Positions 27,862 to 52,522 of a DNA stretch of 64,000 bases are shown one piece after another (the first letter of the stretch is position 1; each line of letters starts with the position of its first letter). A program made the translations under genes and the position numbers. Source of the stretch: Clostridia bacterium (GTDB lineage: Bacteria; Bacillota; DTU025); assembly GCA_034926675.1 (NCBI GenBank), contig JAYFQW010000001.1, forward strand, positions 62,001-126,000, written 5' to 3'. The notes beneath the pieces are model-generated. The model was given only the letters and a program-made list of their open reading frames with translations. It was not told where the DNA came from and ran no database searches.

Positions 27862-28113
27862 ATGATGACGGAGTCTGAGGTCATGGCAAAGGTGCGTGAG
27901 ATCGTCGCCGACAAGCTCGGCATCCCTGAGGAGGAGATCCTTCCGGAGTCGAGCTTCATCGAGGATCTTGGCGCTGATTCGCTTTACCTGAACGAGATCG
28001 TGTACGATCTTGAGGAGGAGTTCTCCATTAGGGTTCCAGATGCGGACTTCGATTCCCTCAGAACAGTGGGTCAGGCTGTTGCCTACATACTGGAACGTGT
28101 CTCAAACAGGTGA
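27862..28113 (+). CDS. acpP: Acyl carrier protein
   Basis: ACP carries growing acyl chains on a phosphopantetheine arm. The 83-aa protein has the GADSL motif whose serine is modified, in the context FIEDLGADSLYLNEIVYDLE. The residues after DSL (YLNEI) differ from the usual DxVE(L/I), although the following EEEFSIRVPDAD is typical. The start is ATG 27862 or 27865, both within range of GGAGG (27852-27856). The gene overlaps rnc by about 17 nt and has its own promoter. Confidence 0.9.
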   Translation: MMTESEVMAKVREIVADKLGIPEEEILPESSFIEDLGADSLYLNEIVYDLEEEFSIRVPDADFDSLRTVGQAVAYILERVSNR

Positions 28114-28816
28114 TGACCGTGGCCTGGTAGAGGCCACTATAGGCTGCCATTTCGGCGATTCCGGACTCCTGGTCCGCGCCCTTACTCACACTTCCTACGC
28201 CTCTGAGCACGGGCTGGAGCGCTCTGAATCTAACGAACGCCTTGAGTATCTGGGTGATGCTATCCTCAAGGCAGTAGTTGCAGGGGAACTGGTTCGGGTT
28301 ATGGGAGATGCTGATGAGGGCAAGCTCTCGAAAGTATCCGCTCAGGTCGTGAGTGGGCTCTCGCTTGCACGCGTGGCGAGAGAGATGGGGCTCGACGCCC
28401 ACGTGAGGCTTGGCCACGGCGAGGAGAGCACCGGCGGCCGAACGCGGACTCGGAACTTGGCTGGGGTGATGGAAGCCGTGATAGGGGCTCTCTACCTCGA
28501 CTCTGGATTCGAGCACGCCAGGGCCTTCATCGTCAGAGCCATGTCGCCTACCATTGAGGCGGTCATGTTGGGGCCAGCTAGCGACTATAAGACTGCTCTT
28601 CAGGAAGAGGTGCAGGGCGGTCCCTTGGGTGCGATATCATATCGAATCGTAAGAGCCGAGGGCCCACCTCACAGGCCATGTTTCACGGCAGAGGCGCTCA
28701 TCGGAGAGGCGATAGCCGGCTCTGGGGAGGGGTCTAGCAAGCGCCAGGCGGAGCAGGAGGCCGCAAGATCCGCTCTGGCCTCACTGCTCGATGCGTCGTC
28801 ACATCGGGATTCGTAA
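28097..28816 (+). CDS. rnc: Ribonuclease III
   Basis: RNase III cleaves double-stranded RNA, including rRNA precursors. The 239-aa protein has the catalytic motif NERLEYLGDAIL near residue 47, a second acidic site in EAVIGALYLDSG near 125, and a C-terminal dsRNA-binding domain (YKTALQEEVQG to SKRQAEQEAARSAL). GTG 28097, inside the acpP 3' end, gives a family-like N-terminus. Further open sequence upstream is in the acpP reading region and is ignored. No strong ribosome binding site is visible, suggesting coupling to acpP translation. Confidence 0.93.
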   Translation: MSQTGDDRGLVEATIGCHFGDSGLLVRALTHTSYASEHGLERSESNERLEYLGDAILKAVVAGELVRVMGDADEGKLSKVSAQVVSGLSLARVAREMGLDAHVRLGHGEESTGGRTRTRNLAGVMEAVIGALYLDSGFEHARAFIVRAMSPTIEAVMLGPASDYKTALQEEVQGGPLGAISYRIVRAEGPPHRPCFTAEALIGEAIAGSGEGSSKRQAEQEAARSALASLLDASSHRDS

Positions 28817-28909
28817 CGCGAGCCATCCGCGAATACCTGCAGGGACGTCCAAATATGATTCAGATAGGATGCACGATGCAATCTGGATCGGCGATTTGGA
28901 GGTCTGGCC

Positions 28910-29647
28910 ATGGTGGAGCGGGAAGACGACATATCTCTCGTCGCAAGATCGAAGCGGGGTGAACAGGGCGCTTGGATAGAGCTGGTGAAGAGGTATACTC
29001 CCATGGCGCGCTCCCTGGCCCGAGCTTCCTGGCGTCCGACTCATGACTACGACGATGCATTGCAGGAGGGCATGATCGGGCTCATCCGTGCTGTCATGCA
29101 GTTTGATCCGACCTGTGCTGGCATCAGGTTCAGTTCGTTCGCGTACCTCTGCATATACAGGCAGATCGCGAACTGGGCGGCTCGCGCATGGAAGATGCCT
29201 ACCTACGCCCTTCGGTCCGTGGCGCCCAACAGGGCGGAAGCCAGCACGGAACTGGGACTGCTCCCGCCTGACGTGAAGTCGTCGCGCCCCCTGAGCCCTG
29301 AGGATGCGGCGGTTGAGGGCGAATCCGCGGCACGGGTGGCTGAGGTTCTTCGTGGGCACCTGTCCACCTTGGAGCTATCGGTAATCCTGATGGTCCTCGC
29401 AGGCTACTCGGCGGGGGAGATGCCCGGTCGTCTTGGGGTTACATACAAAAGCGTGGACAACGCTCGTTCGAGAGCTCTGCGCAAGCTCGGGCGCCTGGTC
29501 AGAAGATATGGCTCACTGGGCAACCCGGATCTGCCGTTGTACGGCAGGCGGCGGGAGGATCTGTGCTTGAGCCTCAGGTCATATAGGCGGGCGCCAGAGG
29601 GCGTGCCGAAAGACGTGCCGGAGCATGCACGCGCAGATGGCGAGTAG
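28910..29647 (+). CDS. SigH-like sigma-70 family factor
   Basis: This 245-aa sigma factor resembles the sporulation/transition-state sigma SigH. Region 2 contains YDDALQEGMIGLIRAVMQFD and RFSSFAYLCIYRQI. Region 4 has LSTLELSVILMVLAGYSAGE followed by GVTYKSVDNARSRALRKLGR, close to the SigH KSIDNALQR motif. A basic tail of about 45 residues follows. ATG 28910 is 9 nt after GGAGG (28896-28900). The usual sigH locus is near rlmB and secE, so a copy between rnc and smc is unusual and may be an additional paralogue. Confidence 0.82.
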   Translation: MVEREDDISLVARSKRGEQGAWIELVKRYTPMARSLARASWRPTHDYDDALQEGMIGLIRAVMQFDPTCAGIRFSSFAYLCIYRQIANWAARAWKMPTYALRSVAPNRAEASTELGLLPPDVKSSRPLSPEDAAVEGESAARVAEVLRGHLSTLELSVILMVLAGYSAGEMPGRLGVTYKSVDNARSRALRKLGRLVRRYGSLGNPDLPLYGRRREDLCLSLRSYRRAPEGVPKDVPEHARADGE

Positions 29648-29723
29648 GCGGCGGAGTTGGCATCTATGGTAGAAATGCGGGCCGGCTCATACCGGCCCAT
29701 TGCTATGGGAGGGCCATTCATCT

Positions 29724-32700
29724 TTGTACTTAAAGAAGCTCTCTCTCTTCGGGTTCAAGTCATTCGCAGGCCGAGTTGAACTCGACTTGACCCGTGGCAT
29801 TGTCGGGATCGTCGGGCCCAACGGTGTTGGCAAGAGCAACATATCCGACGCCCTCAGGTGGGCACTGGGCGAACAGAGTGCGCGGTTGCTCAGAGGCTCG
29901 AAAATGCAGGACGTGATCTTCGCCGGCAGCGAAAGCCGGCGCGGGCTGGGTTACGCTGAGGTGACCCTTGTATTCGACAACTCCGATCAGTTCTTCGATA
30001 TGGATTTCGACGAGGTTACGGTGACGAGGAAACTATACCGTTCAGGTGAGGGCGAGTACTCCCTGAACGGGGTGGCTTGCAGGCTTCGGGACATTAGCGA
30101 TCTCTTCTCTGGGACAGGCCTGGGCCGAGAGGCCTATTCCGTGGTGGAGCAGGGCAAGATCGATTCGATACTGTCTGCGCGTCCCGAGGACAGGCGCGCG
30201 GTGTTCGATGAGGCTTCTGGCACAGCCAAGTATAGGGTCCGGAAACGGGAGGCAGAGCGGAAACTCGCTGAGGTTCACGCAGACCAGCTTAGGGTTGGCG
30301 ACCTCGCTGCGGAACTCGCAAGGCAGCTGCCGCTGCTCGAGGCCCAGGCGGAACAGGCACGACTGTGGCAAGACCTTACTGATCGGGCTTCCCGAATGGA
30401 GCTAGATATCCTCTCTGCTGACATTCTACAGCTTGCCAGCCGTCGGGCGGAGCTTGCCGCTCGGCTCGAAAGCCTTATCGAGGAAGAGAGAGCCGACGCT
30501 GTCGCGGTCGCAGAGTGCGAAGCAGCTCTGGAAGACGCAAGAATGAGCGTGGCGCAGGCAGAGTCGGCGGTGGACGCCATGCATTCAGCTGCCTCCGAGG
30601 CTGCCGCAACGGCAGAAAGGGAGAGCGGGCGCGTCCAGGTTTGCGAAGAGAGACGGGCCGCTCTAGAGGCCCAGTCTGCTCAGATTGAGGCAATGCTTTC
30701 TGCTGAATCGGATCGGCTCACAGTCCGACGTTCTGAGTTCGCGGATGTATCGGCGCGGGCAGCAGAGGCGAGGTGCAGCCTCGAGCAGTGCGTGCACGAG
30801 GCGAAGCAGCTAGAGGCGCGAGCTGCGGAACTTGCGGCACAGGTTGCAGCGGCCGAGTCGGCGGCGGAAGGGAGCAGAGCGAGCCTCTTCGGTGCGCTTG
30901 CGCGCGGGGCGGAGCTTCGTTCGAGGTCCGCAGCGAACGAGGCGTCGAGGCGATCAGGGCAGGCGCGGGTGGAGAGAATCCGCGCACAAATCGCTTCCCG
31001 CAGCAAGGAGCAGGAGCGTGCCGAGGAGGCTTCTGAGCAGGCAGCTATCGAGGCTGTTTCGCTGGAGCGGGCCTGGGCGGAGGCGGGCAATGGCCTTGAC
31101 CTTGCGAAGGCGGATCTGGCAACCTCCAGGCTTCGCCTTGAACAGAGTGCTGGTCGATTCGGTGCAGCCAGTTCCGTGGAATCTGAGATCCGTGCGACCC
31201 ACACAAGCCTCGAAGCCATTCAGCGTCAATACGAAGGATACGGACGCGCTGTGAGGACCCTTCTTTCGAAAGACGGCGGGAAGCGGCTCGGGCTTCTCGG
31301 AGTTGTCGCTGACCTCATCAGGGTCCCAAGAGAGTATGAGACGGCCGTGGAGGCCGCTTTGGGAGCGGCTGTCCAGAACATCGTAGCGAGTTCCTCCGAC
31401 GCCGCCGAGCGTGCGGTGGGGATTCTCAAGTCTGGAAAATCCGGACGCGCTACGTTCCTTCCCCTCGATATCCTGCGGCCGTCGCCGTTGCCTCGCTCTG
31501 AGGTTCCGCATGGCCCTGGCATAGTGGGCCTTGCATCGGAGCTGGTTGAGTGTGCCCCTGAGCACCGAAAGGCAGTCGACTATCTCCTCGGGAGAGTCGT
31601 GGTCGTGGCTGAACTCGCACGTGGAGTGGCCCTGGCCAAAACCGGGCTCAGGTGCAGGATAGTGACACTGGATGGGGATGCCATTTCCTCAGGAGGAGCG
31701 ATCACCGGAGGAGAGATCCCCGATAGGCAAGCTGGACTGCTTGCCCGTTCACGGAGGCTCGAGGAGATTCAGGCTGATCTGGCCCGTGCGGAGGCTGAAC
31801 GCAGCAGGCTCGGGCAGGACCGGGAGTCTGCGGCATCAGCGGTCGAGGCTTCCGAGGAGGCACTCGGGGCAGCTCAGCGCAGGAGGGCAGAGTGCGAACT
31901 TGCGCTGAGGACTCTCACTGAGAGGGCGCGAAACCAATCATCTGCGCACGTGCGCTCGTCGGAAGAGCTGGAGGCGCTCAGGCTTGAGTTGGAATCTGTT
32001 CTGGCTGAGAACGAGTCGCTAGAGGCAGATGCAGTGCGGATCAGTGATGAGGCGGTCGAGGCGGAGCTTGCGCGCGCTGAGATCGGACAAGCGCAGGCTG
32101 CTGCTGCTGAGAACCTCGCTTCGCTTCGGGCCGACGCGGCCGCGGCTTCGAGATGCTGCACCGAAGCGGCATCTGCACTGGCCGCTTCACGGGAGAGGAC
32201 GAAGGCGCTCGACGCCGCCCTGGAAAGAGCCAAAGCGGATTGCGCTGCATCCGCGGCAGAACTGGCGCGACTTGGGCAGGACACCGAACGGGTCGTTGCA
32301 GAGTCTGCATCGAACATGCGCGAGATCGAAGCCGCGCGGGAGGCTGCAGCCGTGTGTGCGCAGTCCCACAGAAGGATGCAGGAGGATCTGGATTCGGCGC
32401 GTGAGGCCAAGGCGTCTCGTGCTGAGGCGGCCAATGCGGCCGAGAGAAACGCCAGAGCGGCGAGGAGGGCCCACGGGGCAGTCTCGGACCTTCTCGCGCA
32501 GGTGCGGGTGGAGGACGCGCGGGTGGAGGCTGAGTATGAATCCGCAGTGGGCAAACTGGCCGCATCATACTGCATGAGCCCTGAGGAGGCGCTCCGCCGC
32601 GACGTTGTGCTGGAGTCCAGGGAGAGCGTGCTCTCGGAAATAGCTGTGGTTCGTGCGAAGATATCAGAGATGGGGCCGGTGAATCACGCCGCAGTTGAGG

Positions 32701-33266
32701 AGCACTCCGGCCTCGCCCAGAGATGCGCATTCCTCCAGGGCCAGCTAGCGGATCTTGATGAGGCGCAGGAGTCGCTTGCCAGGGTTGCCGGCGAAAGCGA
32801 ACGGGTGTGCAAAAAGCAATTCATGGAGACCTTCGAGGCGATCAGGATAGAGTTCAACGACATCTTCGACGACATATTCGGGGGCGGAACTGCGGATCTG
32901 ATTCTCGATGACACGGATAATCCACTCGAATGCGGGATCGATGTGGCCTGTCAGCCGCCTGGCAAGAAGCTCACGAACCTGTCCCTACTCTCAGGGGGAG
33001 AGAGGGCTCTCGTGGCGATTGCGCTCTTGTTTGCGATCATGAGAGTCAAGCCAAGCCCAGTTTGCGTCCTTGATGAGATAGACTCCGCACTTGATGAGGC
33101 GAACGTTGCCAGGTTCGTAGATCTACTGGGTCCGTTCTCACGGCAGGTTCAGATTCTCCTGGTCACTCACAGGAAGCGCACTATGGAGTGTGCAGACACG
33201 CTCTTCGGAGTGACAATGGAGGAGTCCGGCGTATCGAAGGTGTTCTCAATCAGAGCAGCACAATAA
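29724..33266 (+). CDS. smc: Chromosome segregation protein SMC
   Basis: SMC forms a ring-shaped ATPase with ScpA/ScpB that condenses and segregates chromosomes. The 1180-aa protein has Walker A GPNGVGKSN near residue 32, long coiled coils (about 165-490 and 660-1010, very Ala/Glu/Arg-rich), a hinge near 500-660, the ABC signature LLSGGERALVAIALLFA near 1090, and Walker B VCVLDEIDSALDEAN near 1115. The TTG 29724 start gives the canonical (M)YLKKLSLFGFKSFAG and follows GGGAGGG with a 10-nt spacer. It is followed by ftsY as in Bacillus. Confidence 0.96.
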   Translation: MYLKKLSLFGFKSFAGRVELDLTRGIVGIVGPNGVGKSNISDALRWALGEQSARLLRGSKMQDVIFAGSESRRGLGYAEVTLVFDNSDQFFDMDFDEVTVTRKLYRSGEGEYSLNGVACRLRDISDLFSGTGLGREAYSVVEQGKIDSILSARPEDRRAVFDEASGTAKYRVRKREAERKLAEVHADQLRVGDLAAELARQLPLLEAQAEQARLWQDLTDRASRMELDILSADILQLASRRAELAARLESLIEEERADAVAVAECEAALEDARMSVAQAESAVDAMHSAASEAAATAERESGRVQVCEERRAALEAQSAQIEAMLSAESDRLTVRRSEFADVSARAAEARCSLEQCVHEAKQLEARAAELAAQVAAAESAAEGSRASLFGALARGAELRSRSAANEASRRSGQARVERIRAQIASRSKEQERAEEASEQAAIEAVSLERAWAEAGNGLDLAKADLATSRLRLEQSAGRFGAASSVESEIRATHTSLEAIQRQYEGYGRAVRTLLSKDGGKRLGLLGVVADLIRVPREYETAVEAALGAAVQNIVASSSDAAERAVGILKSGKSGRATFLPLDILRPSPLPRSEVPHGPGIVGLASELVECAPEHRKAVDYLLGRVVVVAELARGVALAKTGLRCRIVTLDGDAISSGGAITGGEIPDRQAGLLARSRRLEEIQADLARAEAERSRLGQDRESAASAVEASEEALGAAQRRRAECELALRTLTERARNQSSAHVRSSEELEALRLELESVLAENESLEADAVRISDEAVEAELARAEIGQAQAAAAENLASLRADAAAASRCCTEAASALAASRERTKALDAALERAKADCAASAAELARLGQDTERVVAESASNMREIEAAREAAAVCAQSHRRMQEDLDSAREAKASRAEAANAAERNARAARRAHGAVSDLLAQVRVEDARVEAEYESAVGKLAASYCMSPEEALRRDVVLESRESVLSEIAVVRAKISEMGPVNHAAVEEHSGLAQRCAFLQGQLADLDEAQESLARVAGESERVCKKQFMETFEAIRIEFNDIFDDIFGGGTADLILDDTDNPLECGIDVACQPPGKKLTNLSLLSGGERALVAIALLFAIMRVKPSPVCVLDEIDSALDEANVARFVDLLGPFSRQVQILLVTHRKRTMECADTLFGVTMEESGVSKVFSIRAAQ

Positions 33267-51646: not shown

Positions 51647-52522
51647 ATGGCAGTAATAACGATGAAGCAGTTGCTCGAGGCGGGCGTGCACTTCGGTCAC
51701 CAGACGAGGCGCTGGAACCCTAAGATGGCTAAGTACATCTTCACCTCAAGGAACGGCATATACATCATCGACCTCCAGAAAACAGTCAGGAAGGTAGAGG
51801 AAGCGTATCAGTTCGTCCGATCTACTTCCGTGGACGGAGGAACCATCCTCTTCGTGGGCACTAAGAAGCAGGCTCACGACACAGTCACCGAGGAGGCCCA
51901 GCGCTGTGGCATGTTCTGGGTGAACGAGCGTTGGCTCGGCGGCATGCTCACGAACTTCGCCACCATCCGCAAGCGGGTGGAGCGGATGAAGACCCTCGAG
52001 CGTATGGAGGAGGACGGATCGTTCGATGTGCTTCCAAAGAAGGAAGTCCTGAATCTCGTGGCCGAGAGGGAGAAACTCCAGAAGAACCTGAACGGCATAC
52101 GCGATATGAAGAGCACTCCTGATGCGGTGTTCATCATCGACCCGCGCAAGGAGAGGATCGCAGTCGCCGAGGCGCGCAGGCTTGGTATACCGATCGTAGC
52201 TATTGTCGACACCAACTGCGATCCGGATGAGATCGACTACGTGATTCCCGGGAACGACGATGCGATCCGCGCAGTCAAGCTTCTCACATCGAGAATGGCC
52301 GACGCCGTGATCGAGGGACGTGAAGGGCTCGACCAGGCGCCTGTGGCCAGCGCCGACGCAAGAACGGTGGAGATACCGGACAGCCGCCCGATCAAGGCCT
52401 TCGATACGCCTGTGGCAAGCGCCGACGCAAGAACGGTGGAGGAGTCTGGCAACGCCGATGCAGCTGATGAAGCACCGGCGATAGTCGGAGCATGTGAAGA
52501 CGCCTCCGCGACCGGCGTCTGA
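51647..52522 (+). CDS. rpsB: 30S ribosomal protein S2
   Basis: S2 joins the 30S body late in assembly. The 291-aa protein starts [27 protein letters not shown] and has the standard blocks [25 protein letters not shown] and [11 protein letters not shown]. The last 60 residues are an acidic, Ala-rich tail in which [11 protein letters not shown] occurs twice, produced by a tandem duplication in the DNA. ATG 51647 is preceded by GGAGGGAGGTG. It is followed by tsf. Confidence 0.97.
52338..52441 (+). repeat. Direct repeat inside the rpsB tail
   Basis: A 35-nt segment at 52338-52372 recurs at 52407-52441 with a single difference, an offset of 69 nt (23 codons, in frame). It encodes the repeated [11 protein letters not shown] in the S2 C-terminal extension. 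Confidence 0.9.

Follow-up and report, generated by a model that had tools for sequence, protein, structure and literature searches.

sigX, a SigH-related sigma factor gene upstream of smc, as a candidate for a further mother-cell sigma factor in spore-forming Bacillota

The 245-residue protein encoded between rnc and smc in a 64,000-nucleotide stretch of a Clostridia bacterium genome (the window) belongs to a separate family of SigH-related sigma factors, labelled sigX in this report. The explanation that fits the data best, and which we consider probable as a whole, is that the sigX family has been passed on vertically among the spore-formers of the phylum and functions as a mother-cell sporulation sigma factor under the control of sigma-E and SpoIIID, beside sigma-K and not instead of it. 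The family itself, its synteny, its co-occurrence with other genes and the promoter-like motifs with their statistics are read directly from the genome sequences; the case is strong where the family is concerned but weak for the copy in the window. No description of the family was found in the openly licensed literature, which is weak evidence of absence because the search covered openly licensed papers only.

Results and Discussion

The gene and its protein

The features of the locus, all on the forward strand, are as follows.

28010..28816 (+), rnc (RNase III), the upstream neighbour (ORF list; start codon uncertain)
28817..28909 (+), gap between rnc and sigX, without spoVS; no sigma-E-type promoter of significance, the highest score being 2.8 at 28831
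28898..28902 (+), ribosome-binding site GGAGG (sequence)
28910..29647 (+), sigX, SigH-related sigma-70 factor of 245 aa (ORF calls, NCBIfam, Pfam, family profile search, tree)
28982..29194 (+), sigma region 2, residues 25-95 (Pfam PF04542, family alignment, SigH comparison)
29357..29488 (+), sigma region 4, recognition-helix stretch KSVDNARSRALRKL (PF08281 sub-threshold, 60-row alignment, AlphaFold helices 130-200)
29507..29563 (+), C-terminal motif, residues 200-218 (YGSLGNPDLPLYGRRREDL), which SigH is without (60-row alignment; mostly gaps in 17 SigH)
29564..29644 (+), window-specific end of the tail, residues 219-245, unconserved in the alignment of orthologs and of low confidence in the AlphaFold model
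29700..33266 (+), smc, the downstream neighbour (ORF list)

The open reading frame begins with ATG, 3' of the GGAGG, and ends 52 bp before smc. Pfam Sigma70_r2 (PF04542) matches the protein with 42.3 bits (gathering cut-off 24), and region 2 retains D49, Q52, E53, G54 and L58 together with F74, S75, F77, A78, Y79, C81 and R84. Region 4 (PF08281) scores 19.5 bits, below the cut-off of 25.7, but is recognisable, and it was aligned with region 4 of SigH. The protein can be assigned to the sigma-70 family, for which binding of core polymerase and initiation are predicted. The top NCBIfam models are those of SigH (PRK08295, 74.9 bits versus a cut-off of 208; TIGR02859, 71.7 versus 294.8), with scores of roughly one quarter to one third of the curated cut-offs. 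Among solved structures, the closest relative in sequence is the sigma-H chain 3mzy. The AlphaFold model (pTM 0.46) has two confident domains whose mutual arrangement is uncertain; Foldseek ranks 9a4r_A (titled RPSH-RPOB) first, and the fold search returned general sigma matches only, from which no function could be derived.

The preliminary description of this stretch, which placed a sigma factor with regions 2 and 4 between rnc and smc, is borne out. The 45-residue basic tail that it mentioned exists but is not basic overall, because eight R/K are balanced by eight D/E over residues 200-245 (manual count). From the alignment and the model, the tail divides into a conserved motif, which takes up some 19 residues at its start, and a window-specific end; the block 201-210 has a mean pLDDT of 93, while the rest of the tail is uncertain.

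SigX as a separate family

A family profile was built from 11 proteins (that of the window and ten further orthologs) and run on 398 genomes of the phylum, which are mostly incomplete and, where related, not independent; start codons were picked by rule. It matched 60 of the 398 genomes, once each, with scores from 233.8 bits (a fragment at a contig edge) upwards; the next-best match in the whole set, at 160.2 bits, was at the level of ordinary SigH. The carriers span at least 23 families. In the class of G311, the genome of which is one very GC-rich contig, 61 of 72 genomes carry sigX, a set that overlaps the 398. PF04542 is found in 59 of the 60 members at E ≤ 0.01.

In a tree of 61 proteins, including 32 SigX chosen out of the 60 and 17 SigH, SigX forms one clade (94/90) beside the SigH clade (99/99) and apart from the group-2/3 and ECF factors. 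The ECF factors of the window genome form a clade of their own (100/100) without the window protein, which instead pairs on a long branch with the SigX of G008, a genome of the same order (100/97). Residues F74, S75, F77-Y79, C81, R84, K180, D183, N184, A185, R188 and K192 are invariant in all 60 aligned rows, as are G201, R213, R215 and D217 in the C-terminal motif, where S202, L203 and L218 are nearly so; the motif follows the pattern YGSLxxPxxPxxxRxRxDL, also present in the window protein. Distances between SigX proteins track those between the FtsY proteins (r = 0.83, 0 of 2000 permutations, 51 loci), as vertical descent predicts.

Conservation of the locus

Regions of up to 12.7 kb around all 60 sigX genes were compared. 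The smc gene lies downstream in 56 loci, at 41-639 bp in 55 and at 4193 bp in one, where a recombinase-like gene is inserted. No smc was found in L073, L094 or L129, each with at least 5.9 kb of 3' sequence, and in L107 the contig ends 169 bp past sigX. Upstream, rnc is present in 52 loci; in six of the eight loci without it the contig reaches no more than 1.2 kb upstream, and L074 and L094 gave no rnc match in 6 kb of sequence. The upstream neighbour of sigX is spoVS in 41 of the 60 loci and in 14 of the 23 families (PF04232, 5.6e-39, with a typed blend of translations as the query). By this synteny the location between rnc and smc is ancestral for the family.

The window copy is not flanked by spoVS, and the profile search found sigX in none of the seven other genomes of the window's family. 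The stretch before smc could be read in six of the seven and has the order rnc-smc in four and rnc-spoVS-smc in two (G002 and G006); in G008 the order is rnc-spoVS-sigX-smc. The simplest history starts from rnc-spoVS-sigX-smc as the ancestral order, followed by loss of sigX in the relatives and of spoVS beside the window copy.

A sigma-E-type promoter upstream of sigX

Most sigX upstream regions share the motif [GT][CA]ATATT, followed after about 14 nt by CATATAnAT. The sigma-E consensus KMATATT/CATACAMT served as seed and for scanning; among the 59 upstream regions scored (L129, with no upstream sequence, was excluded) it matched at 11 or more of 15 positions in 49 (9.8 expected) and at 12 or more in 25 (1.4-1.6 expected). 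To avoid circularity, a matrix was trained on spoIVA upstream regions only (29 genomes, 24 in the final matrix), seeded with this consensus. A score of at least 10 was obtained for 53 of the 59 sigX upstream regions (4.1% of shuffles), and for 19 of 23 when the first-listed member of each family was taken. The control genes, for which the start of the BLAST match was taken as the gene start, reached this score in 1/56 cases for smc, 0/53 for ftsY, 0/51 for rnc and 5/41 for spoVS (shuffles 8.3%). SpoIIID-like boxes lie in or near the sigma-E-type promoter; of the SpoIIID forms RRACARNY and GACAA[GC], the second occurs within 100 nt in 29/59 sigX upstream regions (1.9 expected) and at background level at the other four genes. 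The promoter and boxes together are the reason for placing sigX in the mother cell. A promoter match is not expression, and the regulation of sigX is putative.

Several observations weigh against the mother-cell reading. The sigX upstream regions of the window (2.8) and of G311 (-6.5) score poorly, as do those of G008 (6.8), G023 (7.0), G064 (4.7) and, just below 10, G352 (9.6). The second sigma-E control, spoIIIAA, is weak, with the consensus at 11 or more of 15 in 8/30 upstream regions versus 16/29 for spoIVA, although the spoIIIAA starts are poorly placed. The spoIVA matrix was itself seeded with a sigma-E consensus. One carrier without a Spo0A match and five without a SpoIIID match count on the same side.

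The copy in the window is the weakest case, being fast-evolving, without spoVS or a recognisable sigma-E promoter, and with relatives that lost the gene. It has lost the clear signs of sigma-E control, and there is a considerable chance, though somewhat short of even, that this copy alone is a decaying or rewired relic of the family. Besides the missing neighbour and promoter and the absence of sigX from its family, it has the longest end branch of any SigX in the tree (1.26); against decay, it has an open frame, a good ribosome-binding site and all 22 residues invariant in the 60-row alignment. The spoIVA site of the same genome scores 24.9, so the organism has kept the promoter type and lost only its trace at sigX. 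Within the window, the spoIVA-trained matrix has a single site scoring 12 or more, at 51735 (+), with 15.6.

Relationship of SigX to sigma-H promoters

The spoVS gene of B. subtilis is under sigma-H control. The sigma-H consensus used for scanning matches one given in PMC8510167. In the spoVS upstream regions of the sigX loci, sigma-H-type sites matching at 11 or more of 12 positions occur in 22/41 (1.7 expected from shuffles) and full matches in 8/41 (0.1 expected), while such sites are near expectation upstream of smc, ftsY and rnc. This agrees with PMC8510167, in which the two B. thuringiensis spoVS genes depend on sigma-H, with promoters of the form RNAGGAWWW / RNNGAATWW.

With such sites next to sigX, and with K..DNA..R common to the -35 helices of SigX and SigH, SigX might be a back-up for SigH in the transition phase, reading sigma-H promoters such as the one of spoVS next to it. 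We regard this as unlikely, since canonical sigH is retained in the same genome, the promoter type of sigX itself points to later expression, and regions 2.3 and 2.4 carry near-fixed differences (S75 versus R, Y79 versus E and N88 versus T in SigH). The shared helix suggests that SigX prefers a -35 close to that read by SigH, and the differences in region 2.3/2.4 suggest another -10; both preferences are predictions only.

It is common for an alternative sigma factor to direct transcription of its own gene, and the strong motif directly upstream of sigX could likewise be recognised by SigX itself, or by sigma-K, and not by sigma-E. This we judge less likely still. The matrix was learnt from spoIVA, a gene reported to be sigma-E-dependent in C. 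difficile (PMC3789822). G094 gave no match to sigX, and yet its spoIVA fits the matrix just as well, at 28.1; the motif is therefore independent of sigX. The -35 half of the motif is, in addition, of the ATA type.

The position of smc downstream in nearly all loci would also be expected if SigX served smc and chromosome segregation from a common operon. This reading is improbable and not favoured, as sigX has a putative promoter of its own and no smc was found in three loci with at least 5.9 kb of downstream sequence. Sigma-A-like -10 boxes are, furthermore, visible in several sigX-smc gaps from several families (by eye, in 27 chosen loci), although a strict sigma-A consensus scan upstream of smc gave no enrichment.

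Sigma factors of the carriers

The window genome has 13 region-2 sigma genes, named by sequence as SigA, SigF, SigE, SigG, SigK (also over the cut-off of TIGR02846), SigH, a FliA/WhiG type, four ECF factors, sigX and a third SigH-like protein. Canonical sigH is on contig 26 directly after rlmB, in the order cysS, mini-RNase III gene, rlmB, sigH (neighbours named from translations by the analyst), so that the place beside rlmB is held by another gene (L002/L145) and not by sigX. The preliminary description had left a choice between a second SigH-type factor and the only sigH in a rearranged place, and had proposed a search for another sigH at rlmB. The search finds that gene, and SigX is a second SigH-type factor, distinct from sigH. 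The other option, to which the best NCBIfam matches being SigH models would have lent support, is refuted by this gene and by the ancestral nature of the rnc-smc place. Of the two findings that the preliminary description named as refuting it, a position outside the SigH clade applies in part, as the protein falls in the sister clade; a standard location in relatives with no other sigH does not apply, since the location is standard among the orthologs but another sigH exists.

The third SigH-like protein (G000:C14:17109-17588; L003, L142) has a relative in G007 (L037), with which it groups at 100/99 outside both the SigH and sigX clades.

SigK is over the cut-off in 57 of the 60 carriers, with no match near the cut-off in G038 and G135 and a score 2 bits below it in G164; replacement of sigma-K by SigX was rejected on this count. 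Spo0A is found in 59 carriers (no match at 1e-30 in G050) and SpoIIID in 55, the other five giving no match; the high co-occurrence of the three with sigX speaks for the sporulation reading. Two or more Spo0A-type matches occur in 51/60 carriers versus 30/338 other genomes, possibly a clade effect.

A possible third mother-cell sigma factor

SigX resembles SigH/Spo0H (TIGR02859) in its two-domain layout and in the K..DNA..R helix of region 4. It differs in forming a separate clade, in scoring far below every SigH cut-off, in region 2.3/2.4, in the additional conserved C-terminal motif, in not lying beside rlmB and in having a sigma-E-type promoter in most carriers. SigK falls in a different clade and is present together with SigX in the 57 carriers; the control proposed for sigX is like that of C. 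difficile sigK, where a SpoIIID box accompanies a sigma-E-type P1 (PMC5025042). The spoVS genes of B. thuringiensis share the sigma-H promoters of spoVS at the sigX loci; the available part of PMC8510167 describes no adjoining sigma gene.

In most carriers sigX would thus form a transcription unit of its own between spoVS and smc. An early sigma-H promoter would drive spoVS, a sigma-E promoter with SpoIIID-like boxes would drive sigX, and sigma-A-like boxes, recognised by eye only, might drive smc. Read from a sigma-E-type promoter, SigX would be made in the mother cell once asymmetric division has taken place. It would then turn RNA polymerase towards an additional group of late mother-cell genes, alongside sigma-K. 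The assignment of the motif to sigma-E, the binding of SpoIIID, the timing and the activity of SigX as a sigma factor are all interpretations of sequence.

Textbook endospore formation has one pair of sigma factors per compartment (F/G and E/K). It is an even question whether there is a large set of spore-formers with three mother-cell sigma factors, in which sigma-E leads both to sigma-K and to a SigH-derived SigX with its own late regulon, an ancient arm that is missing in the well-studied Bacillus and Clostridium models. If sigX, which occurs in 23 or more families, is under sigma-E/SpoIIID-type control, the ancestral sporulation program would have to be reconstructed differently, and sigX would be a defined gene to examine in non-model spore-formers.

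Other genes near sigX

In 13 of the 60 loci (L071, L072, L088, L105 and nine others), spoVS-sigX is preceded by 'X', a conserved protein some 220 residues long; against Pfam, one copy gave no match and another sub-threshold matches only. A divergently oriented protein, helix-turn-helix-like at its start and LexA/S24-like at its end (the analyst's reading; no Pfam match), flanks sigX in 16 of the 60 loci (L088-L091, L093, L094, L096, L100, L101, L105, L107, L114, L115, L120, L122 and L124), even in L094, where smc is not a neighbour. In G023 (L073), sigX is relocated and is followed by a PsbP-like protein and then, as the second gene, by Spo0A (TIGR02875, 224.2 versus 200 bits).
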